Of a DNA stretch of 64,000 bases, positions 26,248-36,901 are shown in pieces; positions within the stretch are counted from its first letter, which is position 1; each line of letters starts with the position of its first letter. Source of the DNA: Verrucomicrobiales bacterium (lineage in GTDB: Bacteria; Verrucomicrobiota; Verrucomicrobiia; Verrucomicrobiales; DEV007); NCBI GenBank assembly GCA_016795505.1, contig JAEUHH010000028.1:1-64000 (forward strand), given 5' to 3'. The translations under genes were made by a program, and so were the position numbers. The notes under the pieces were generated by a model that saw only the letters and a program-made list of their open reading frames with translations, was not told the origin of the DNA and searched no databases.

Positions 26248-29129
26248 CGTTTCGAGATCGTTTCGTCGAGGTTCAGGATGGTGTGGGCGACGAGGGGCCA
26301 GGAATCGTGGCGCTGGCGGAGGCCCTCGAGGAGCCGGCGCTCCTCCGCATCGGGCAGCCGACCGGTCGCGGCGCGAAACATCCAGCCGAGGCGGTCCTGC
26401 CGGCCGGTGGACCGCTCCGCAAAGGCCTCGGCGGCGAGGAGGAAGGTCTCGTCATTGAGCAGAAGCAGCGCCTGCAGCGGGGTGCTGGTGCGGGCGCGGC
26501 GGGCGGTACACTTTTCCCGAGTGGGGCCGTCGAAGGTGAGGAGGAGTGGATGGGGCGACTGGCGTTTGACGTAGGTATAGAGGCTGCGGCGCCAGAGACC
26601 GTCGCCGGTGTCGGGCACGTAGGAGTCCTCCCCATTGTAGCTGACCGCTTCCCAGAGGCCGGGCGGCTGGAAGGGTTTTACACTGGGACCGCCGAGCTTC
26701 GGCACCAGCAGTCCGGACAGGGCGAGGGCCTGGTCGCGCAGGGTTTCGGCGGACAAACGGCCGCCCGGTCCGCGGGCGAGCCAGCGGTTCCCGGGGTCAC
26801 CGGGATGGATGTGCCGCGAGGACTGGCGGTAGGCGCGCGAGAGGACGATGGAGCGAAGCAGTGCCTTCACATCCCAGCCGTCGGCGCGGAATCCGGCGGC
26901 GAGCCGGTCGAGCAGCTCGGGGTGGGTCGGGGCTTCGCCCTGCGATCCGAAGTCGTTCGGCGTGCGCACGAGACCCTCGCCGAAGCACTGCGCCCAGAGC
27001 CGGTTGACCGCGACGCGGGCGGTGAGGGGATTTTCCGGCGCGAAGAGCCAGCGGGCGAAGCCGAGCCGGTTCGGTGGCAGGTCGGCGGACCATGGAGCGA
27101 TCGCCACGGGGACGCCGGGCTGGACGCGCTCGCCGGGCTGGTCATACTGGCCGCGCTCGAGGACGTGGGCGGGGCGCGGCTCCTTCATTTCTTCCATCAC
27201 CAGCGTGACGGGCACCCGGTCGCGCAGCGTCCGCGCGGCCTCGCGGGCGTCGAGCAACTCGCGCCGGGCCTGCCGGGCCGATGGATCGCCGTGGCGGTCG
27301 AGGAAAAAATCGAGGAGCCGGTCCGAGTCAGTGGCGGCGCGCTTTTCCGGCGGGGTTTCGAGAATGCCGCGCAGCCGCTCGCCCTGAGACCACCCGGCGA
27401 TCGCGGCCGGGTCGAGCGCCTCGGGGAGGAAGCGCACCTCGTCGATGAGCCCGTAGTAGCCGAGACCCGCGTCGCGCCGGCCGATGCGGATCGGCTCGGA
27501 GGTGGCCAGGCTGCCGTCGAGCGTGTCGCGCCGCACTTCCAATGTCGTCGGCTTTCCGTCGAAAAAGACCTGGAGTCCACCGGCCCGTCGCGAGCCGTCG
27601 TAGCGGACGGCGATGTGATGCCATGCTCGCGAGCCGAGCGCCTCGACCGTGGCGACCTCGATGGCGCTCGCGCCCCAGCGATGCACCAGATTCACCTGGA
27701 GCCGGCCCTTTTGCCAGATCAGCTCCAGTCCGCGGCGGTTTCCTTCGGGCTCGATGAGGGAAAGCGGGCAGCCCAGCGAGCCCTCGGCGTGCAGCCAGAG
27801 GCCGATGGTCCACGGGCGGTCGGGGTCGAAACCCGCTGAGGGCCGCTCCACGTGCCGCGTCGCATCGAATTCCGCCGCCTCGCCGCGCACCCCGGCGGCG
27901 TAAGCGAAGGCCGTTCCCGACACCGAGGTTCCCACACCGAGCTGGGACGCTCCGAGCGGCAGATGGATGACGGCATCGGCGGGCAGCGGGGGCAGATCAG
28001 CAGGAGAGCGGCTTTCCCAGTCGGCGAGGGCCGTTTTGACCGCCGCATGGACCGGCTGCCAGGCCTGCTCCGCCGTGCTCAGCCGGCTTTCGGCCGCGGA
28101 GAGGGCCGCCTCTTGCTCCGGACCGGGCACGGCGAGGACGGGCGGCGGATTGTCGGCCCGGATCAGGCCCTGCTCGGGCACGTTGTTGAAAAAGGAAAAG
28201 AGCTGGTAGAACTCGCGCTGCGAGATGGGGTCGTACTTGTGGTCATGACATTGGGCGCAGCCCGCGGTGAGTCCCAGCCAGGTCGTCAGGGTCGTATCCA
28301 CGCGGTCGACGACATATTCGACGCGGAACTCCTCGTCGATGGCGCCGCTCTCGTTGTTCGCCATGTGATTGCGGTTGAAGCCGGTGGCGATGCGCTGGCT
28401 CAGTGTCGCCCCGGGCAGCAGGTCGCCGGCGAGTTGCACGATGCTGAAGCGGTCGAAGGGCATGTTGGCATTGCCGGCCTCGATCACCCAGTCGCGCCAG
28501 AGCCACATCTGCCGTGGCTTGTCGCCAAAATAGCCGTTGGTGTCCGCATAGCGCGCGAGATCGAGCCAGGCTACCGCGAGGTGCTCGCCAAAATGCGGCG
28601 AGGCGAGCAGCGATTCGACGGCGGCCTCGTAGGGCTGGTCGAGCAGGGCTTCGGACGGCGGCAAGCCCGTGAGGTCGAGGGCGGCGCGGCGGATCAGGGT
28701 TGCCTCCGCGGCCGGGGGAGCCAGGGACAGGCCGCGGTCCTGTAACGAGGCCTCGACGAGCGAGTCGATCTCCGCCGGCTTCATGTCGCCCGCGACCGCG
28801 GGAAGAGGCTCGAAGGCCCAGTGCTTTTGGTAGGCCGCCCCGGCGTCGATCCAGCGCCGCAGCGTGTCCACCTGAGCCGTGGTCAGGCGCGGCTTGTGCG
28901 AGGACGGCGGCGGCATGACCTCGTCGGCGTCGGTGGTGGTGACGCGGCGGATCACTTCCGCCAGATCCGCCCCGGCCACATCGAGCCGCAGGTCGCCTTT
29001 CCGCCCTTTTGCATCGGGACCGTGGCAGGCGAAGCAGTTTTCCGACAGGATCGGCCGGATGTCCCGATTGAACTCCTGCGCCCCGCAGCACAGCGGCAGC
29101 CAACAGAGGCAGAGGAGGAAAAGGCGCAT
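26244..29129 (-). CDS. Planctomycete-type cytochrome C / LamG / DUF1549-DUF1553 protein
   Basis: The 961-residue exported protein has a signal peptide ([16 protein letters not shown]) and one haem c site Cys32-x-x-Cys35-His36 in the planctomycete cytochrome C domain ([14 protein letters not shown]). DUF1549 follows ([31 protein letters not shown]-like region). A central LamG-like domain (about 390-590, with [14 protein letters not shown] and [14 protein letters not shown]) comes next. DUF1553 is C-terminal ([33 protein letters not shown]). It is the first gene of the two-gene operon with the DUF1501 protein. The domain set suggests an envelope-located redox or carbohydrate-binding role, not yet defined. 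Confidence 0.94.
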
Positions 29130-29147
29130 CAGGCGTCCATTATCGCC

Positions 29148-30521
29148 TCAGATGCCCGACGCGAGGAGTTCCTTCATCGCGTCCGTCAGCACAGCCTCGA
29201 CCGCCGGACCCACCCGCGACACGTGGTCGCCGACTTCGTAGCCGCCCTGGGTGTAGGCGATCGCGGTCCCGATGTAGCTGGGCGCATTGTCGCCGTAAGC
29301 GGCCATGGCAACGAACTCGTCCGGACGCATCGCCTGCGCGGCGAGTTGATACTCGACGAACAACTCGGCCGGCAGGTGCAGGATGTTGGCGGAGCCGAGC
29401 CGCAGCCGGCCGACCGGGATCGTGCCCCCGGCGGCCATGCGACGGATGAAAACAAGGTCGCGGGCGGCGAAGGCGCGCTGGGCGAAGGGCTTCGCGTCGT
29501 CGGCCAGCACCGCGAGCAGCCGGGGCTCGCCATCGGGATGCCGCACCGGCAGGGCGACGGGCCGGGCGCGCCAGTCGACTTCGGCAGCGCTCAGCGGCAC
29601 CTTTTTCTGCGTCTCCCAGGCCGACTGCATGCCGCGCGCGACCCGACTGGCGAGGACGGCTCGGTTCGCGGGATCTCCGTCGTTGTACTTGCCGGCCGTG
29701 ATATTGCCGCCGGCACCATTGAAATGGATGAAACGCACGCCAGGAAACGCCGCATCCATCAGCGCCCGTGCCCCGCCGATGAAATCCCAGTTCACTCCAC
29801 CCCGGCCGTAATAGCTCATCGGATGGGTCGCATAGTAGGTCAGAGCCGCCAGGGGCGTTCCGTCCTGCCAGAAACTCACCAACCGCACCTTTGGATCGAT
29901 CGTGCCCTCCGGCGCGGTGGCTGCCTGCGGATGTTTCGAGGCGCTCATGCGGGAGAAGGCCACCCTACCATCCGGACCGAGGACGCGGCGGTTGGAGGCG
30001 ACCTTCTCGACGGTGCCGGTGCCAAAGCCAGCGTGGGTGACGGGCCGCGCCTCGCCCAGGCTGGCGCGGGCGGCATCGGCGATCGCCTGAAAGACGCGCC
30101 GGTCGAGCGCTTCGTTGGAAAATCGCCCGCCCAAGCCATGGGCGGCGAGGAGCTGCTCGGTGTCGAGGTCGCTGCCCGGCGCGTCGTGCTGATGGACGGT
30201 GTGGACGGCGACGCGATCATCGGTGGTGCCCACGGCCTGCGCGATGGCTTTGCGGATGCCGAGGTGGCTTTGATTCGCCAGCGCGACCCAGTCCATCGCG
30301 CACAGCACGATGGGATCCCCGGCGCCGAGAATGACGATCCCGCGCGCCAACAGCGGTGTGAGGATCTCTTTGGACGGCGGGACATTCCCGTGGCACAGCG
30401 GAGACCCGAGCGGCGGCGTGATGTCGACTTCGAAGGTCGCGATGCGCAGCCCGTCCTCCGCGGCGCGGAGCGGCAGCCAGGGAGCGGCGAGGAGGGCCCG
30501 GGAAAAGCGGCGGCGTTTCAT
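29148..30521 (-). CDS. Secreted neutral/alkaline ceramidase-like protein
   Basis: The 457-residue protein has a short basic/hydrophobic leader (MKRRRFSRALLAAPWLPLRAAE). The following ATFEVDITPPLGSPLCHGN, VHTVHQHDAPGSDLD, YYATHPMSYYGRGGVNWDF and HFNGAGGNITAGKYNDGDP segments match the neutral/alkaline non-lysosomal ceramidase N-terminal domain in order, including its histidines. Many Planctomycetes and Verrucomicrobia encode such proteins without known ceramide metabolism, so the true substrate is uncertain. The ATG at 30519-30521 is chosen because it begins the leader; the frame upstream runs into the dispersed repeat. It lies 18 bp upstream of the cytochrome/DUF1553 gene on the same strand and probably shares its operon. 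Confidence 0.75.
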   Translation of the reverse strand: MKRRRFSRALLAAPWLPLRAAEDGLRIATFEVDITPPLGSPLCHGNVPPSKEILTPLLARGIVILGAGDPIVLCAMDWVALANQSHLGIRKAIAQAVGTTDDRVAVHTVHQHDAPGSDLDTEQLLAAHGLGGRFSNEALDRRVFQAIADAARASLGEARPVTHAGFGTGTVEKVASNRRVLGPDGRVAFSRMSASKHPQAATAPEGTIDPKVRLVSFWQDGTPLAALTYYATHPMSYYGRGGVNWDFIGGARALMDAAFPGVRFIHFNGAGGNITAGKYNDGDPANRAVLASRVARGMQSAWETQKKVPLSAAEVDWRARPVALPVRHPDGEPRLLAVLADDAKPFAQRAFAARDLVFIRRMAAGGTIPVGRLRLGSANILHLPAELFVEYQLAAQAMRPDEFVAMAAYGDNAPSYIGTAIAYTQGGYEVGDHVSRVGPAVEAVLTDAMKELLASGI

Positions 30522-30557
30522 AACGGGTCGGCTGGGAAGCGTTTCGGGTGGGTGGTC

Positions 30558-30606
30558 TTTCCGATGAAACAGGGTATGATCGGCGATGCTACCCTGTTTG
30601 ATCGGA
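30558..30606. repeat. Dispersed ACAGGGT repeat, copy 4 (hairpin form)
   Basis: TCCGATGAAACAGGGTA and TACCCTGTTTGATCGGA form an almost perfect 17-bp stem with a 13-nt loop. It lies in the 129-bp gap between the pyruvate carboxylase stop and the ceramidase-like start, both on the minus strand, so it could end the first transcript. Confidence 0.85.
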
Positions 30607-30650
30607 TTTGGCCAGACCCGAAACACTCCCGGACCGGTGCCGGTCGTGCC

Positions 30651-33600
30651 TCACGGCTCCAGCCGCATCAGCAGATCGTCGGTCTCGACGGCTTCGCCGG
30701 TGCGCACGATGACCTCGGTCACCACGGCGTCCTGGGCGGCGGAGATGGTGGTGAGCATCTTCATGGCCTCGAGGGTGACGAGCGGGTCGCCGGCTTTGAC
30801 GCGGTGACCGACTCCGACGGCGACCTCGGTGACCATGCCGGGCATGGGAGCGACGGCCTGGAGCGGGTCCTTGGCATCGCCCTTGCGGCGGGTGACGGCA
30901 TTTTTCGGCGCGCGGGCCTGATCAATGACCTGGGACTCGCGCGGCATGCCGTTGAGTTCGTAAAACACGGTGCGGCGGCCGGCGGCGTCGGGTTCGTTGA
31001 TACCGATGAGCTTGATGAAGAGGATCTTGCCGGGCTGGATCTCGATGGAGACCTCCTCGCCCACCTGGAGGCCGTAGAAAAAGGCCGTCGTGGGCAGGCC
31101 GGTGAGGCGGTCGTAGGTGGAGAGGAATTTCTGGAAGTCGGCGAACACCTGCGGATACATCAGGTGGCTGTAAAGGTCGTCTTCGCTGGCCACGCGGCCC
31201 AGCTTTTCGGACAACTCGGCGCGGACGGACTCGAGGTCGACCGGCTCGGCCAGTTCGCCGGGGCGTTGGGTGGTCGGCTGGCGGTTGCCGAGCACGGCCT
31301 TCTGCACGTCGATGGGCCAGCCGCCGTCGGGCTGGCCGAGACCGCCGGCGAGCATGTCGATGACCGATTCGGGGAAATCGACGGAGCCGGGCTTGAGGCC
31401 GGGCACGTCGGCGGGCGCGATGCCGCGGGTGATGAGGAACATGCACATGTCGCCGACCACCTTGGAGCTGGGCGTGACCTTGATGATGTCCCCGAAGAGC
31501 TGGTTCACCTCGGCGTAGGTGCGGGCGATCTCGGGCCAGCGATGGCCGAGGCCCATGGCGTTGGCCTGCTCCTTGAGATTGGTGAACTGGCCGCCGGGCA
31601 TCTCGTGCTCGTAAACTTCGGCGCTGCCGGCCCGCGGACTGGTGTCGAAGGGCTTGTAGAAGGCCAGCACTTCGTCCCAGTAGTCGGACATCTCGTTGAG
31701 GGCGCGCAGGTCGAGGCCAGGATCGCGCTCGTGCCCGTCCAGGGCGGCCACGACGGAGTTCAGGTTCGGCTGGCTGGTCGAGCCGGACATGGAGGCGATG
31801 GCCAGGTCGACGATGTCGACGCCGGCGTCGCAGGCCTGGAGCACGGAGGCGGCATTGATGCCCGAGCTGTCATGGGTATGGAAGTGGATGGGCAGGTCGG
31901 TCTCGTCGCGCAGGGCTTTGACCAGCTTCGCCGCGGCGGCGGGACGGCACAGGCCGGCCATATCCTTGATGGCGATGAGGTGGGCGCCCATCTTTTCCAG
32001 CTCGCGCACCTTTTTCACATAGTATTCGAGCGAATACTTGTCCCGGCGGGGATCGGTGATGTTGCCGGTGTAGCAGATGGCGGCCTCGCAGAGGGCGTAG
32101 GGCTGGTCGCGCACCGCCTCCATTGCCACCCGCATGTTGGGCAGGTAGTTGAGGGAATCGAAGATGCGGAAGATGTCCATGCCCGAGTCGGCGGCGTGCT
32201 TCACGAAGCCGGCCACGACGTTGTCGGGATAGTTCGAGTAGCCGACCGCGTTGGAGCCGCGGAAGAGCATCTGGAAGAGGATGTTGGGAATCTTTTCCCG
32301 CAGCAGCCGCAGCCGCTCCCAGGGGCACTCGCGGAGGAAGCGCATCGCGGTGTCGAAGGTGGCGCCACCCCACATCTCGAGGCTGAAGAGATTTGGCGTC
32401 CGCTGGGCGATGGCGTCGGCCACGTTCAGCATGTCGGCGGTGCGCATCCGGGTCGCCAGCAGCGACTGGTGGGCGTCGCGCATGGTGGTGTCGGTGATGA
32501 GCAATTGCTTCTGGTCGCGGATCCAGCGGGCGAATTTTTCCGGGCCCAGTTCACGGAGCTTGTCGCGGGTGCCGGCGGGCTTGTCACCGCGCAGGTCGAA
32601 GTGCGGGGCGCGGGCGGGCGGCAGGATCTCGGGCAGCCGGTAGCCTTTGGCCGTCGGGTTGCCGTTCACCGTCATGTCGCTGAGGTAGGCGAGCAGCTTG
32701 GTGGCCCGGTCGCGGCGGGGCTTGAACTTGAAGAGGCTCGGCTCGGTGTCGATCAGCCGCGTCGTGGCCATGCCGCTGCGGAAGATGGGGTGCTGGACGA
32801 CGTTTTCCAAGAAGGGGATGTTCGTCTTGACCCCGCGGATGCGGAACTCGCGCAGGGCGCGGTGGGTGCGCTGGAGGGCGATGTCGAAAGTCGGTCCCGA
32901 GGCCGTCAGCTTCACGAGCATCGAGTCGTAGTAGGGCGTGATGACCGCGCCCGCGTCTCCCGCGCCGGCATCGAGCCGGATGCCGAAGCCGGCGGCCGAG
33001 CGGTAGTTGAGGATCTTGCCGTAGTCGGGCGAGAAATTCCTCTCCGGGTCCTCGGTGGTGATGCGGCACTGCACGGCGTAGCCATTCCTCGGGATGAGGT
33101 GCTGGGCGGGGATGGCCACCTCGGGGCCGTGGAGATCGTGGCCCTGGGCGATGAGGATCTGCGAGCGGACCAGGTCGATGCCGGTGATGACCTCCGTCAC
33201 GGTGTGCTCCACCTGGATGCGGGGGTTCATCTCGATGAAATACCACTCGTTGCGGTCGAGATCGTAGAGGAACTCGACGGTGCCGGCATTGTTGTAGCCG
33301 ATCTCCCGGCCGATGCGCACGGAGGCGGCGCACAGTTCGGTGCGGATGGCCTCGTCCAGTTCGACGGAGGGCGCGATCTCGATCACTTTCTGGTGGCGGC
33401 GCTGCACGGAGCAATCGCGCTCGTGGAGGTGGACGACGTGGCCGTGCTGGTCGCCCAGCACTTGGACTTCGATATGCTTGGCCCGGCCGACGAAGCGCTC
33501 CAGGAAGACTTCGGGATTGCCGAAGGCCTTTTCCGCCTCCGATTGGGCCTCGGCGAGTTTGGCGGCGAGGTCGCCTTCCTTTTCCACCACCCGCATGCCG

Positions 33601-34130
33601 CGTCCGCCGCCGCCGTGGGCGGCCTTGATGATGAGGGGAAAGCCGATCTCCCGGGCGATGGCCATGGCCTCCTGCGGGTCCGAGACTGGTTCCTCGGTGC
33701 CGGGCAGGGTGGGGACGTTGATTTTTTTTGCCAGGGCGCGGGCGGCGACCTTGTCCCCCATGGAGGAGAGGATCTCCGGGCTGGGGCCGATGAAGGTGAT
33801 ACCCGCCTCGGCGCAGGCTCGGGCAAAGGCGGCGTTTTCCGAGAGGAATCCGTAGCCGGGGTGGATCAGGGAGACGCCCTTGTCCTTGGCGAGCCGCACG
33901 ATGCCCTCGATGTCGAGGTAGGCGCCCACGGGGCCCTTTTCCTTGCGCAGCAGATAGGCTTCGTCGGCCTTGAAACGGTGGCGCGAGTAGCGGTCCTCCT
34001 CGGCATAGATCGCGACGGTGCGCAGGCCCAGCTCGGTGGCGGCGCGGAAGACGCGGATGGCGATTTCACCGCGGTTCACGACCATCAGTTTGGTCTGGGC
34101 GGCAGAGGATTGGGGATCGTGGTCGGGCAT
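30651..34130 (-). CDS. pyc: Pyruvate carboxylase
   Basis: This single-chain, biotin-dependent enzyme makes oxaloacetate from pyruvate, bicarbonate and ATP in the cytoplasm to refill the TCA cycle. At 1159 residues it matches the family (~1150). The biotin carboxylase domain comes first (VNRGEIAIRVFRAA, GGGGRGMRVV, FIEMNPRIQVEHTVTE). The carboxyltransferase domain follows (TTMRDAHQSLLATRMRT, FSLEMWGGATFD, HFHTHDSSGINA), then the PYC tetramerisation region. The biotinyl domain is last, with EAMKM and the biotinylated Lys1124, 35 residues from the end. The ATG at 34128-34130 is preferred; an ATG at 34163 would add 11 residues. Neither has a clear ribosome-binding site. Confidence 0.96.
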   Translation of the reverse strand: MPDHDPQSSAAQTKLMVVNRGEIAIRVFRAATELGLRTVAIYAEEDRYSRHRFKADEAYLLRKEKGPVGAYLDIEGIVRLAKDKGVSLIHPGYGFLSENAAFARACAEAGITFIGPSPEILSSMGDKVAARALAKKINVPTLPGTEEPVSDPQEAMAIAREIGFPLIIKAAHGGGGRGMRVVEKEGDLAAKLAEAQSEAEKAFGNPEVFLERFVGRAKHIEVQVLGDQHGHVVHLHERDCSVQRRHQKVIEIAPSVELDEAIRTELCAASVRIGREIGYNNAGTVEFLYDLDRNEWYFIEMNPRIQVEHTVTEVITGIDLVRSQILIAQGHDLHGPEVAIPAQHLIPRNGYAVQCRITTEDPERNFSPDYGKILNYRSAAGFGIRLDAGAGDAGAVITPYYDSMLVKLTASGPTFDIALQRTHRALREFRIRGVKTNIPFLENVVQHPIFRSGMATTRLIDTEPSLFKFKPRRDRATKLLAYLSDMTVNGNPTAKGYRLPEILPPARAPHFDLRGDKPAGTRDKLRELGPEKFARWIRDQKQLLITDTTMRDAHQSLLATRMRTADMLNVADAIAQRTPNLFSLEMWGGATFDTAMRFLRECPWERLRLLREKIPNILFQMLFRGSNAVGYSNYPDNVVAGFVKHAADSGMDIFRIFDSLNYLPNMRVAMEAVRDQPYALCEAAICYTGNITDPRRDKYSLEYYVKKVRELEKMGAHLIAIKDMAGLCRPAAAAKLVKALRDETDLPIHFHTHDSSGINAASVLQACDAGVDIVDLAIASMSGSTSQPNLNSVVAALDGHERDPGLDLRALNEMSDYWDEVLAFYKPFDTSPRAGSAEVYEHEMPGGQFTNLKEQANAMGLGHRWPEIARTYAEVNQLFGDIIKVTPSSKVVGDMCMFLITRGIAPADVPGLKPGSVDFPESVIDMLAGGLGQPDGGWPIDVQKAVLGNRQPTTQRPGELAEPVDLESVRAELSEKLGRVASEDDLYSHLMYPQVFADFQKFLSTYDRLTGLPTTAFFYGLQVGEEVSIEIQPGKILFIKLIGINEPDAAGRRTVFYELNGMPRESQVIDQARAPKNAVTRRKGDAKDPLQAVAPMPGMVTEVAVGVGHRVKAGDPLVTLEAMKMLTTISAAQDAVVTEVIVRTGEAVETDDLLMRLEP

Positions 34131-34262
34131 GGGGGGCGGAATATAAACGCGGTTTGGCTCCATCCAAGGCGGAAGTGGCCGCGAGCGGGTTTTGTGCCAA
34201 AGGCTGCGGATTGCCTCGTCGCGGGCGGCGGATTCGCGGCTGGCGGGGCAGCCGGGATCGAC

Positions 34263-35663
34263 TCAACCGCCGAAAACGACGCGACAGATCGTCACGGCGA
34301 CGAGGAGGCCGGTGGCATCGGCACAGAGGCCGGCGGCGAGGGCATGGCGGGTGCGGCGGATGCCGACGCTGCCAAAGTAGACTGCCAGGACGTAGAAGGT
34401 GGTCTCGGTGGAGCCGTACATGGTGGCGGCGGCGTACTTTTTCCAGACCTCGAGCGACTCGTGGGTGAGCAGGTCGGCCAGTACGCCCTGACTGCCGGAG
34501 CCACTGAGCGGTCGCATCAGGGCCATGGGCAGCAACTCGGCGGGGAAGCGGATCAGGTCCAGCACGGGCGTGAGCAGGCTCTGCATCAGGGGCAACGCGC
34601 CGGAGTAGCGCATCGCGGCGAGGGCGGTGAGCATGGCGACGAGGAAGGGCATGATGCGCAGCACGACCTGAAAGCCCTCGCGGGCGCCCTCGACGAACTC
34701 CTCATACACCTTCAGCCCCCGCACGGCGGCGAGGACGGTGAAAAACACGAGCATGAAGGGGATGGCGGCGACGGAGAGGGCTTTGAGAAGCACCAGAAAG
34801 CCCGAGGGCTGGCCGGGGTCGGCTTTTTCGGTGGAAGCGGCCGGGGCATCGAGTTGCTGCACCGCCTCGGTGAGGCCGAGGACGTTCTGGAGCGCGGTCC
34901 GCTGGGCGGGAAAGCATTCCAGATAGACAGTGCCGATGAAGACCGCTGCCACGGCGCCGAGGGCGATCCAACCGCCGCGGCGAATGGGCCGGAGGGTGCC
35001 ATTTTCCGACTCAGGGGCGGCGCTGCCGGCCGTCTCGGGCTCGGTGGAGTCGGCTGCGGGCGGCGGGGCATCGGGAATGCGGAAAAGAGGGAGGCGCTGA
35101 AAGAATTTCGACGCGGCGATGCCGACGATCTGGGCACACCCGGCGGCGACGAGGGTGGTGCCGACGATGGCGTAGGGATTGGCCAGGCCGCGCGCGGCGA
35201 GGAGGCCGATGGCCGTGGCGGGAATCAGGGTGATGGCGCTGGTATTGATGGCGAGGAAGGTGCACATCGCATTCGACGCCGTCCCGGGATGGGGATTGAG
35301 TTCGTCGAGGTGCTTCATGGCCTTCAGGCCGAGGGGCGTGGCGGCGTTCCCGAGGCCGAGGAGGTTGGCGGCCATGTTCATGATCATGGCGCCCATGGCG
35401 GGGTGTTCGGCAGGCACATCGGGGAAAAGCCGACTCATGACGGGGCGGATGAGGCGCGACAGCACGTCGATGGCGCCGGATTTTTCGGCCAGCCGCATGA
35501 TGCCGAGGAAAAGCATGAGGATGCCGGCGAGGGGCAGGGCGATGGACATGACGCCGGCTTCGACCTGCGAGAGGATGCCATTGACCACCTGGCTCATCCG
35601 GCCCATGAGGGCGGCGACGGCGACTCCGATGAGGATGAGGGCGAGCCAGATATAGTTCAGCAT
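34263..35663 (-). CDS. Nucleoside-recognition (Gate) domain membrane protein, SpmA-SpmB fusion
   Basis: The 466-residue membrane protein fuses two Gate domains. The N-terminal half resembles SpmA (NYIWLALILIGVAVAALMGR, NMAANLLGLGNAATPLGLKAM, TFLAINTSAITLIPATAIGL). The C-terminal half resembles SpmB (YEEFVEGAREGFQVVLRIMPFLVAMLTALAAMR, LSGSGSQGVLADLLT, STETTFYVLAVYFGSVG). A ~90-residue hydrophilic Glu/Pro-rich linker separates them. In Bacillus, SpmA and SpmB are separate spore-maturation proteins; fused forms occur in many non-sporulating Gram-negatives, where the transported or sensed compound is unknown. The ATG at 35661-35663 starts the first hydrophobic helix. It is 73 bp downstream of the DUF167 gene on the same strand. 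Confidence 0.88.
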   Translation of the reverse strand: MLNYIWLALILIGVAVAALMGRMSQVVNGILSQVEAGVMSIALPLAGILMLFLGIMRLAEKSGAIDVLSRLIRPVMSRLFPDVPAEHPAMGAMIMNMAANLLGLGNAATPLGLKAMKHLDELNPHPGTASNAMCTFLAINTSAITLIPATAIGLLAARGLANPYAIVGTTLVAAGCAQIVGIAASKFFQRLPLFRIPDAPPPAADSTEPETAGSAAPESENGTLRPIRRGGWIALGAVAAVFIGTVYLECFPAQRTALQNVLGLTEAVQQLDAPAASTEKADPGQPSGFLVLLKALSVAAIPFMLVFFTVLAAVRGLKVYEEFVEGAREGFQVVLRIMPFLVAMLTALAAMRYSGALPLMQSLLTPVLDLIRFPAELLPMALMRPLSGSGSQGVLADLLTHESLEVWKKYAAATMYGSTETTFYVLAVYFGSVGIRRTRHALAAGLCADATGLLVAVTICRVVFGG

Positions 35664-35736
35664 GGGCGACGGCGGTGAGTCTCCCCACGGAGATAGGGGG
35701 CTCCGGGGCCGATGGCAATGCGAAAATGCGCTACGG

Positions 35737-36033
35737 TCACTCGCGGTCGCCGCTGGCGGGTTTTTGGAACCAGACGCGCAGGGCCGCCTCGTCCAAGCCA
35801 TCGATCTCGACCAGTTTCAGCCGGTCTTTCGTGCCCCGCACGATGCGGATGGCGCGTTTCGGCACGCCGAAGGCATCGGCGAGACAGGCGGTGAGGGCTT
35901 CATTGGCTTTGCCATCCACGGGTGGGGCCTGGAGGCGGATGGCGAGGGCCGTTTCCCCGTCGGCGACCGCAACCGGCCCGAGCAGGGCGGTCTGGCGGGC
36001 GTTGGGGACGACTTTGACCAGAAAGCGGGCCAT
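35737..36033 (-). CDS. DUF167 family protein (YggU-like)
   Basis: The 98-residue cytosolic protein matches DUF167/YggU. It has the N-terminal strand LVKVVPNARQTAL, the conserved IRLQAPPVDGKANEAL motif, and the C-terminal RIVRGTKDRLKLVEIDGL. Family members are small alpha/beta proteins of unknown role, often encoded near yggT or PLP-homeostasis genes, which are not seen here. It precedes the SpmA-SpmB fusion gene by 73 bp and follows two tiny ORFs on the same strand. It might therefore be included in the transcript controlled by the riboswitch upstream, although the spacing (over 500 bp) makes this uncertain. Confidence 0.9.
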   Translation of the reverse strand: MARFLVKVVPNARQTALLGPVAVADGETALAIRLQAPPVDGKANEALTACLADAFGVPKRAIRIVRGTKDRLKLVEIDGLDEAALRVWFQKPASGDRE

Positions 36034-36042
36034 GGGGGGGAA

Positions 36043-36192
36043 TCACCGGGCCGGTCCTTTACCACCGAGCGCGTGTTCGCGGTAGCGGCGTTGCATGGCG
36101 GGCGGCCAGAGGTGGAAATTGGCGGGCAGGGGCGGCGATGCCGCGGGTGGGAGAAAGGCGGCGGCAAGCGAAAGCGCGGGGAGCGGGCTCAT
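36043..36192 (-). CDS. Possible 49-residue protein downstream of the riboswitch
   Basis: The ATG at 36190-36192 opens a 49-codon ORF. It has an Ala/Leu/Pro-rich hydrophobic N-terminal stretch (LPALSLAAAFLPPAASPPLP), then FHLWPPAMQRRYREHALGG. It begins 28 bp after the stop of the 85-residue protein and ends 10 bp before the DUF167 start, on the same strand, which is operon-like spacing. No family is recognised. The aromatic/basic second half is more protein-like than random GC-rich ORFs, but coding status is uncertain. Confidence 0.4.
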   Translation of the reverse strand: MSPLPALSLAAAFLPPAASPPLPANFHLWPPAMQRRYREHALGGKGPAR

Positions 36193-36219
36193 GGTGGCTT
36201 GACTGGAGGGAGGGGGGAA

Positions 36220-36477
36220 TCAAATGGCCGCGAGCAGGGTGTCGCGGCGCCGGCGGGCGAGTTCGAGGTCGCGGGTCTTCAGCGAGACCCGGATGCGCTC
36301 GGCCGTGTAGTCCGGCTTGTGGAGGGTGAAATGGCACCACCAGGTGCCGCGGTTGTTCCACAGGTGATGGTTCGGGTTGCCATCGTCCACGCGGACGGCG
36401 AGGTGGCCCGGCACGGCGCGTCGGCGTTCCGGCGCAGTGGTGTCGGCGGTCTGGGCGAGGATGTCTTCGTAGCTCAT
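36220..36477 (-). CDS. 85-residue protein resembling an integrase arm-binding domain
   Basis: The first ~30 residues are polar. The rest (NRGTWWCHFTLHKPDYTAER, then RIRVSLKTRDLELARRRRDT) has the pattern of three beta strands and a basic helix. That pattern is seen in the N-terminal arm-type DNA-binding domain of tyrosine recombinases. No catalytic recombinase domain follows, so it is a stand-alone module. It is the first sizeable ORF after a SAM-like riboswitch and its terminator (about 100 bp from the T-run). It is followed by a 49-codon ORF and DUF167. No Shine-Dalgarno is visible. Function is unknown; DNA binding is inferred from pattern only. Confidence 0.6.
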   Translation of the reverse strand: MSYEDILAQTADTTAPERRRAVPGHLAVRVDDGNPNHHLWNNRGTWWCHFTLHKPDYTAERIRVSLKTRDLELARRRRDTLLAAI

Positions 36478-36576
36478 GTCGTGATGCAGTTAGGTTTTGT
36501 GTGGGCTCCGGGCGGGCCGGGGCTTCTTCTGGTTTAACCACATCAGGATGTCTGTCTGTCGGAGGGGATCTCCCTG

Positions 36577-36620
36577 AAAAAACAAAACGCCGTCTCTCTC
36601 GGCATCGGGAGGGACGGCGT
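36577..36620 (-). terminator. Intrinsic terminator after the riboswitch
   Basis: On the minus strand ACGCCGTC (36620-36613) pairs perfectly with GACGGCGT (36594-36587), and a T-rich run TTTTGTTTTTT (36587-36577) follows at once. It lies about 70 nt after the aptamer's last paired base. That fits either the expression platform of a transcriptional riboswitch or the end of a short RNA. Confidence 0.88.
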
Positions 36621-36688
36621 GGCGATATTTTCGGGGGGACTCGCTCCGCTGGAGAATTTCTGTTCGGGCCGCGTTGCCGCTGCCCGCA

Positions 36689-36802
36689 CATCGGAGACTG
36701 ACGGTCTGTTGGGGTCCGTCAGCATCCAAGGCACCTTGGCTTCTCCATCGCCAGGTTGCCGGATCCTGCCCGCCTTTCGACTGGCAGGATCGCTCCTGAT
36801 GC
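36689..36802 (-). ncRNA. SAM-I/IV clan-like riboswitch aptamer
   Basis: Read on the minus strand, a 114-nt element has the SAM-clan order. P1 is weak, CATC (36801-36798) with GATG (36692-36689). P2 is GATCCTGCC/GGCAGGATC (36791-36783 with 36770-36762). The conserved CGGCAACC follows. P3 is TGGC/GCCA (36753-36750 with 36740-36737), then AGGTGCC. P4 is CTGACGG/CCGTCAG (36722-36716 with 36704-36698). The P2 loop AAGGC (36776-36772) can pair perfectly with GCCTT (36732-36728) in J3/4, the expected pseudoknot. The straight P2 without a K-turn resembles SAM-IV, whereas a P4 resembles SAM-I. S-adenosylmethionine as ligand is inferred from these features. Confidence 0.78.
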
Positions 36803-36809
36803 TGGTGAG

Positions 36810-36837
36810 AAAATAATGAGTCCGCGGCCGTGTGCAA
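36810..36837 (-). promoter_or_regulatory. Candidate promoter of the riboswitch transcript
   Basis: On the minus strand TTGCAC (36837-36832) and TATTTT (36815-36810) are 16 bp apart. The -35 matches three and the -10 matches four of six sigma-70 bases. Transcription would begin about 36803, right at the first paired base of the aptamer, which supports the assignment. Confidence 0.5.
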
Positions 36838-36901
36838 GCGCGGTTTTTGTTGCCGCTCTGTCATACGGTGATGCCGCGGGCGCCGACGGTGACCCCACTC
36901 C

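Follow-up and report, generated by a model that had tools for sequence, protein, structure and literature searches.

A SAM-I/IV riboswitch with a proposed tandem expression platform, linked to an orphan small protein in Verrucomicrobiota

A riboswitch of the SAM-I/IV class lies on the minus strand of the window (the whole stretch of 64,000 nucleotides of Verrucomicrobiales DNA analysed here). It is judged, with a probability of about 0.85, to control in cis the expression of the small gene ORF1 together with that of ORF2; a further step, at about even odds, is that the product of ORF1 is a regulator active under low SAM. The best-known targets of SAM riboswitches are the enzymes of methionine and SAM synthesis. 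The class of the present RNA is already known; what is new is its tie, throughout the phylum, to an orphan small protein, together with a tandem expression platform. No paper linking small proteins of Verrucomicrobiota with SAM riboswitches was found in the literature, as covered chiefly by freely readable main texts. A preliminary description of this DNA had recognised the outline of the riboswitch, but with the wrong boundaries and one spurious pseudoknot.

Extent, structure and class of the aptamer

The core segments of the SAM clan are present on the minus strand (CATCAGGAG, CGGCAACC and AAGGTGCC), and the best Rfam match there is to RF01725 (SAM-I-IV) at positions 36807-36695, with 36.4 bits and an E value of 3.8e-4 for the region at permissive settings, or 8.5e-4 across the whole 6.5 Mb genome, in which it is the single copy. 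This score is under the RF01725 gathering cut-off of 41.1, and the default Rfam comparison found no model at gathering score anywhere in the window. Nothing in the genome matched the RF00162 (SAM-I) model at E<=5. The SAM-clan element proposed in the preliminary description is nevertheless borne out, both by the RF01725 match and by covariation in an alignment of 30 RF01725 homologues from genomes of the DEV007 family, from which a covariance model of our own, R1, was built. The resulting features are as follows.

36649..36805, minus strand: SAM-I/IV aptamer, full extent, 157 nt (RF01725 match, R1 model and covariation)
36798..36802, minus strand: P1 5' strand GCATC, which is also the switching strand, together with J1/2 AGGAG (36797-36793)
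36761..36793, minus strand: P2, straight and without an internal loop; continuous, with double changes in the alignment
36730..36760, minus strand: P3, with the loop GGAGAA (36746-36741) supplying one strand of pseudoknot PK-2
36693..36727, minus strand: P4, with G-C/A-U exchanges at its base in homologues
36688..36692, minus strand: P1 3' strand GATGT (homologue alignment and structure count)
36665..36686, minus strand: P5, with double changes at 4/5 pairs and 94.7% of cells paired
36651..36656, minus strand: PK-2 3' side TTCTCC, with 95.6% of cells paired and one double change

Over the 30 sequences the whole structure has 93.4% of its cells paired and 17 pairs changed on both sides, a level of covariation reached by none of 500 shuffles, every slid version of the structure being far worse. 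In P4, alignment columns 94-96 with 133-135, two of the three pairs show double changes; the complementarity between the P3 loop GGAGAA and the tail TTCTCC likewise includes one double change; P1 is near-constant. The ligand-binding core (P1/J1-2, CGGCAACC and AAGGTGC) is invariant or almost so. R1 scores the window copy, which lies within its own training set, at 123.9 bits. On the 3' side of P3 the homologues have first the variable helix P4, then the P1 3' strand CGATGTGC, and after it the hairpin P5 and the tail GAACAG..TTCTCC, which is conserved. The segment of the window that Rfam assigns to the P1 3' strand is really the 5' arm of P4 (GGATGC); this assignment is rejected, since homologues show the P1 3' strand to be the downstream GATGT. 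The 114-nt element originally delineated ends at this same P4 arm and is thus too short. The pairing of AAGGC in the P2 loop with GCCTT in J3/4, at first taken for a pseudoknot (it would be PK-1), is attributable to chance: the GCCTT segment is nearly invariant in homologues, but the P2 loop of relatives is mostly GAAA-like and lacks the complementarity even within the genus, and no conserved P2-loop complement to J3/4 is seen across the 30 aligned homologues.

According to a cryo-EM study of SAM-IV, the SAM-I/IV class possesses P4 and an undivided P2 and lacks PK-1, with P5 and PK-2 common to SAM-I/IV and SAM-IV (PMC6890682), and a variant without the P2 internal loop had been reported by Weinberg in 2010 (PMC2864571). 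The window RNA has precisely this make-up, namely the core, a straight P2, P4, and P5 with PK-2, and no PK-1. With SAM-I (RF00162) it shares the core and P4; in the alignment it lacks the kink-turn in P2 and the P2-loop pseudoknot PK-1 of that class, and has P5 and PK-2 besides. With SAM-IV (RF00634) it shares P5 and PK-2, whereas SAM-IV has a split P2 with PK-1 and no P4 (PMC6890682), and in the window P2 is continuous and P4 present. Both the straight P2 and the P4 noted earlier are thus confirmed in the alignment, with double changes; the combination defines the SAM-I/IV class itself, however, so that the description of the RNA as an unusual variant is not supported. By these comparisons the minus-strand element is a genuine SAM-I/IV aptamer of standard layout, like known members (RF01725) in its core, straight P2, P3, P4, P5 and pseudoknot between P3 loop and 3' tail, and in having no P2-loop pseudoknot. 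It differs from them in two extra nucleotides between P1 and P5 (GATG-TG-CGG), in a J1/2 that in these RNAs is mostly AGGA, in its tandem terminator and start-codon hairpin with repeated anti-P1 copies, and in that the genes it appears to control are those of orphan small proteins. The J1/2 change, a G in the window where the Rfam consensus has A (AGGAG for AAGAG), is one common difference in the core.

The two small genes and the nature of the ORF1 product

Downstream of the aptamer lie two short reading frames:

36220..36477, minus strand: ORF1, 85 aa, small integrase-arm-like (DUF6538-like) protein (linkage, dN/dS and profile matches)
36043..36192, minus strand: ORF2, 49 aa, LPxNFxxWPxxMxRRY protein (motif found after ORF1 in relatives)

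Copies of RF01725 occur in 42 of the 75 genomes of the DEV007 family, in 15 of them above gathering score. Of the 46 RF01725 loci retrieved from other members of the family, 41 have an ORF1 homologue as the gene immediately downstream. The exceptions are L051, L067 and three loci (L032, L033 and L039; G013:C81, G007:C54 and G021:C242) where the SAM-I/IV copies (44-61 bits) extend over the start codon of a gene whose product is a membrane protein with DUF2637 and a DeoR-type HTH, a target different from ORF1. Counted by genome, RNA and ORF1 are present together in 41, the RNA by itself in one (a genome 53% complete) and ORF1 by itself in none. The ORF2 motif follows ORF1 at 38 of 42 family loci; the pattern used to find it has a single occurrence in 462,275 aa translated from minus-strand frames, and hardly any beyond the family. 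The dN/dS of ORF1 is mostly 0.04-0.23 (one pair gives 0.75 and one is saturated), and 0.12-0.16 against copies from the same genus. Linkage to the RNA and dN/dS together rule out ORF1 as a chance reading frame, the substitution pattern shows it to be under selection as a protein, and on this comparative evidence both tiny frames are genes. The order first described, in which DUF167 follows the 85-aa and 49-aa frames, is indeed present in the window; DUF167 and the Gate protein follow in just one other locus, from the same genus, and are therefore not part of the unit. Two long plus-strand frames, at 35662-36537 (291 codons) and 28821-35678 (2285 codons), overlap the minus-strand genes and resemble the shadow frames of high-GC DNA.

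DUF6538 and Arm-DNA-bind_3 are domains found at the N-terminus of tyrosine integrases. A weak DUF6538 match is seen in 49 of 51 ORF1 members (best E 2.9e-6), the window ORF1 scoring 16 bits against a Pfam cut-off of 27, and four of the 51 match Arm-DNA-bind_3. Among the members tested against Pfam and NCBIfam there was no assignment above cut-off. An AlphaFold model of ORF1 has a beta-beta-beta-alpha core, in which residues 41-80 reach a block-mean confidence of 84-91, and an N-terminus of poor prediction quality; this predicted succession of three strands and a helix resembles that of the integrase arm domains. Foldseek and VIA-align gave no confident match with ORF1 among the matches listed (best E 0.45, best Z 4.2), from which solved arm domains were absent. 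In contrast to tyrosine integrases, ORF1 proteins stand alone, at about 70-110 aa, and the 85-aa ORF1 contains neither the catalytic domain nor any other Pfam domain. These profile matches suggest a distant relationship to DUF6538, short of membership. The most likely role for ORF1, to which we would give about even odds, is that of a DNA- or RNA-binding regulator.

No target for such a regulator is evident, since metK lies elsewhere and has its own promoter element. The metK promoters of the family carry a conserved element, without an Rfam match, beside an apparent divergent ArsR-like frame, and the idea that ORF1 regulates metK finds no support. The metK upstream element at L229-L254 resembles TATCAACnnATCAAGATTTGTAAATA and adjoins the divergent frame resembling an ArsR-family regulator. 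The C-terminus of ORF1 is AA in 21 of 42 proteins outside the window's family and in 1 of 42 inside it, and is possibly a degradation signal.

Distribution across the phylum and the probable ligand

R1 was searched against genomes of the order (289) and of the phylum (388). Of 48 further loci that were examined, all except one outside the window's family, 42 have a same-strand ORF1 homologue, nearly all within a few hundred bases (at L189 it is 1.7 kb from the RNA), although R1 was trained on ORF1-linked copies and the linkage in other families is biased upward as a result. At the remaining six a contig end cuts in or other genes are present. The named contigs overlap with the searched genomes, so that the two sets are not independent. 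A strict scan misses copies: with the filters off, a clear SAM-I/IV RNA was found upstream of ORF1 at 10 of 20 loci in genomes that had no R1 match. No SAM-I/IV RNA was found upstream of the ORF1 homologues of Akkermansia, Haloferula and Roseibacillus. The search for the RNA together with the 85-residue frame in other Verrucomicrobiota, proposed at the outset, thus shows the pairing to recur across the phylum. In two loci (L197 and L203) a single SAM-I/IV RNA, its P1 strand altered to ACATCGCGAG, is followed by two ORF1 copies in tandem. A second branch of ORF1 without a riboswitch (L106-L158, from Akkermansia, Haloferula, Roseibacillus and Rubritalea) is marked by the sequence LALRVNxDNPNHHLWNNRGVWWCHLTVHKPD..., and in Akkermansia the gene comes after an apparent rpmB.

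A search of the phylum with RF01725, which is independent of R1, gives a fuller picture. In other classes the RNA precedes metK, O-acetylhomoserine sulfhydrylase, a family of about 150 aa termed 'NWA', and other genes, the enzymes being named by eye. The 'NWA' family, which has an 'RNWAxC' motif (L255, L261, L263, L265 and L269), gave no Pfam match in the one member scanned, and profile comparison does not support it as a relative of ORF1. Some SAM-I/IV RNAs (L266, L273 and L077) lie near apparent N-formylglutamate amidohydrolases, again identified by eye.

The order RNA, ORF1, metK at three loci (L173, L195 and L199), taken with the location of metK on another contig in the window's genome, raises the alternative that ORF1 has an accessory role in the metabolism of SAM or methionine, such as that of a MetK partner, and was left under the riboswitch when metK moved out of a riboswitch-ORF1-metK operon; the switch itself would act in cis just the same. 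We regard this as unlikely, though worth keeping in mind, given that ORF1 resembles the DNA-binding arm domains of integrases and is mostly found alone or with ORF2, the metK-linked loci forming a small minority.

That the ligand is SAM would be expected from the class of the RNA and is supported by the relatives that stand ahead of metK and O-acetylhomoserine sulfhydrylase. The J1/2 difference, and target genes in the window that are not known metabolic genes, might instead point to an aptamer that has drifted to some other ligand such as S-adenosylhomocysteine. Such drift seems improbable, however, when the same RNA family precedes those two enzymes and when the copies preceding metK at L274 and L276 themselves have AGGA in J1/2.

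Competing pairings and a proposed tandem expression platform

The elements that flank the aptamer and lead to ORF1 are:

36810..36837, minus strand: promoter-like pair TTGCAC-N16-TATTTT (sequence and homologous loci)
36577..36620, minus strand: intrinsic terminator, -20.6 kcal/mol, z -5.6, whose hairpin contains anti-P1 copy 1, TCCCGATGCC (36610-36601)
36539..36549, minus strand: anti-P1 copy 2, ATCCTGATGTG, whose complementarity to the P1 5' strand gives a duplex of -14.4 kcal/mol
36482..36545, minus strand: start-codon hairpin, TGATGTGGTT (36545-36536) with AACTGCATCA (36491-36482), -20.1 kcal/mol, z -2.8

The promoter-like pair had been noticed earlier, and the sequence stands as described: a similar TTGNNN-N16-19-NANNNT occurs in the corresponding stretch of 58 of 84 homologous loci, but a scan with the generic consensus found no sigma-70 site in the region. 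The strong terminator likewise accords with the preliminary description. Between aptamer and ORF1 an intrinsic terminator was detected at 29 of 83 loci, the window included, and not at the other 54; comparable terminators arose in 0 of 415 shuffled leaders, and 26 of the 29 hold an anti-P1 motif (CTGATG-like) in their hairpin.

A leader motif, (T)CCTGATGCG, recurs in nearly every locus and is complementary to the P1 5' strand with J1/2 (GCATCAGGAG). The duplex between P1 strand and leader beats dinucleotide shuffles (p<=0.05) at 72 of 84 loci, with a mean z of -3.3; the best duplex of the window in this test, formed with copy 1, which carries one mismatch, is borderline (p 0.06). The anti-P1 arm also pairs with a second arm near the ATG (typically GCATC), the end of which falls, in most loci, anywhere from 2 nt inside the start codon to 6 nt ahead of it; in the window the start-codon hairpin ends 4 nt ahead of the ORF1 ATG, and most loci have an equivalent placement. 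Differences in the P1 strand tend to be matched in the leader, positions 1, 6 and 7 showing A-U, C-G and G-C replacements, and P1 strands score 12.8 with their own leaders as against 9.9 with those of other loci, several loci not fitting. Conservation and compensating changes thus support a competition between P1 and anti-P1.

Two further readings fare badly against this arrangement. The preliminary description had offered a choice between a small protein under SAM control and a free-standing small RNA that responds to SAM. The former is strongly supported, both by the linkage of the genes and by a conserved platform extending as far as the start codon of ORF1. The latter, in which the RNA would stop at the terminator and the frames downstream would be there by accident, could appeal to the strong terminator after the window aptamer, but is very hard to reconcile with the presence of ORF1 next to 41 of 46 copies in the family, a hairpin conserved beside its ATG, and the 54 of 83 loci without a detected terminator. 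An ON switch, in which SAM turns ORF1 on, has no observation in its favour and is equally implausible, as formation of P1 would release the anti-P1 strand for terminator and start-codon hairpin, in keeping with the usual OFF logic.

Anti-P1 copies that compete with P1 are usual in that logic. With the CCTGATG of anti-P1 in the start-codon hairpin and, at 29 of 83 loci, in the terminator as well, SAM should shut off ORF1, a direction for which the argument is by analogy with established riboswitches. At low SAM, the P1 5' strand together with J1/2 would pair with the downstream anti-P1 copies (CCTGATG type), blocking the terminator and exposing the start codon of ORF1, so that both ORF1 and ORF2 would be expressed. 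Binding of SAM would keep P1 inside the aptamer and release the anti-P1 copies to fold into the terminator and the hairpin just ahead of the ORF1 ATG, stopping both transcription and translation. The two pairings of the P1 5' strand are mutually exclusive. ORF1 itself is proposed to be a stand-alone nucleic-acid-binding regulator of integrase-arm-like fold, active at low SAM. It is tempting, if still speculative, to go further and see in the SAM-I/IV riboswitch the SAM sensor of a stand-alone integrase-arm-like transcription factor, with ORF2 as its partner in one family, in a cascade that sets a low-SAM programme in trans and is governed by a tandem transcription-plus-translation platform with repeated anti-P1.

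With the same anti-P1 sequence reused in terminator and start-codon hairpin, this is a clear example of two expression platforms served by a single aptamer. The ORF1 family is tied to one class of SAM riboswitch through much of the phylum, and this linkage is the first functional clue to the family, whose role thereby becomes directly testable. The recurrent pairing of RNA and ORF1 in Verrucomicrobiota suggests an unstudied regulator under the control of SAM.
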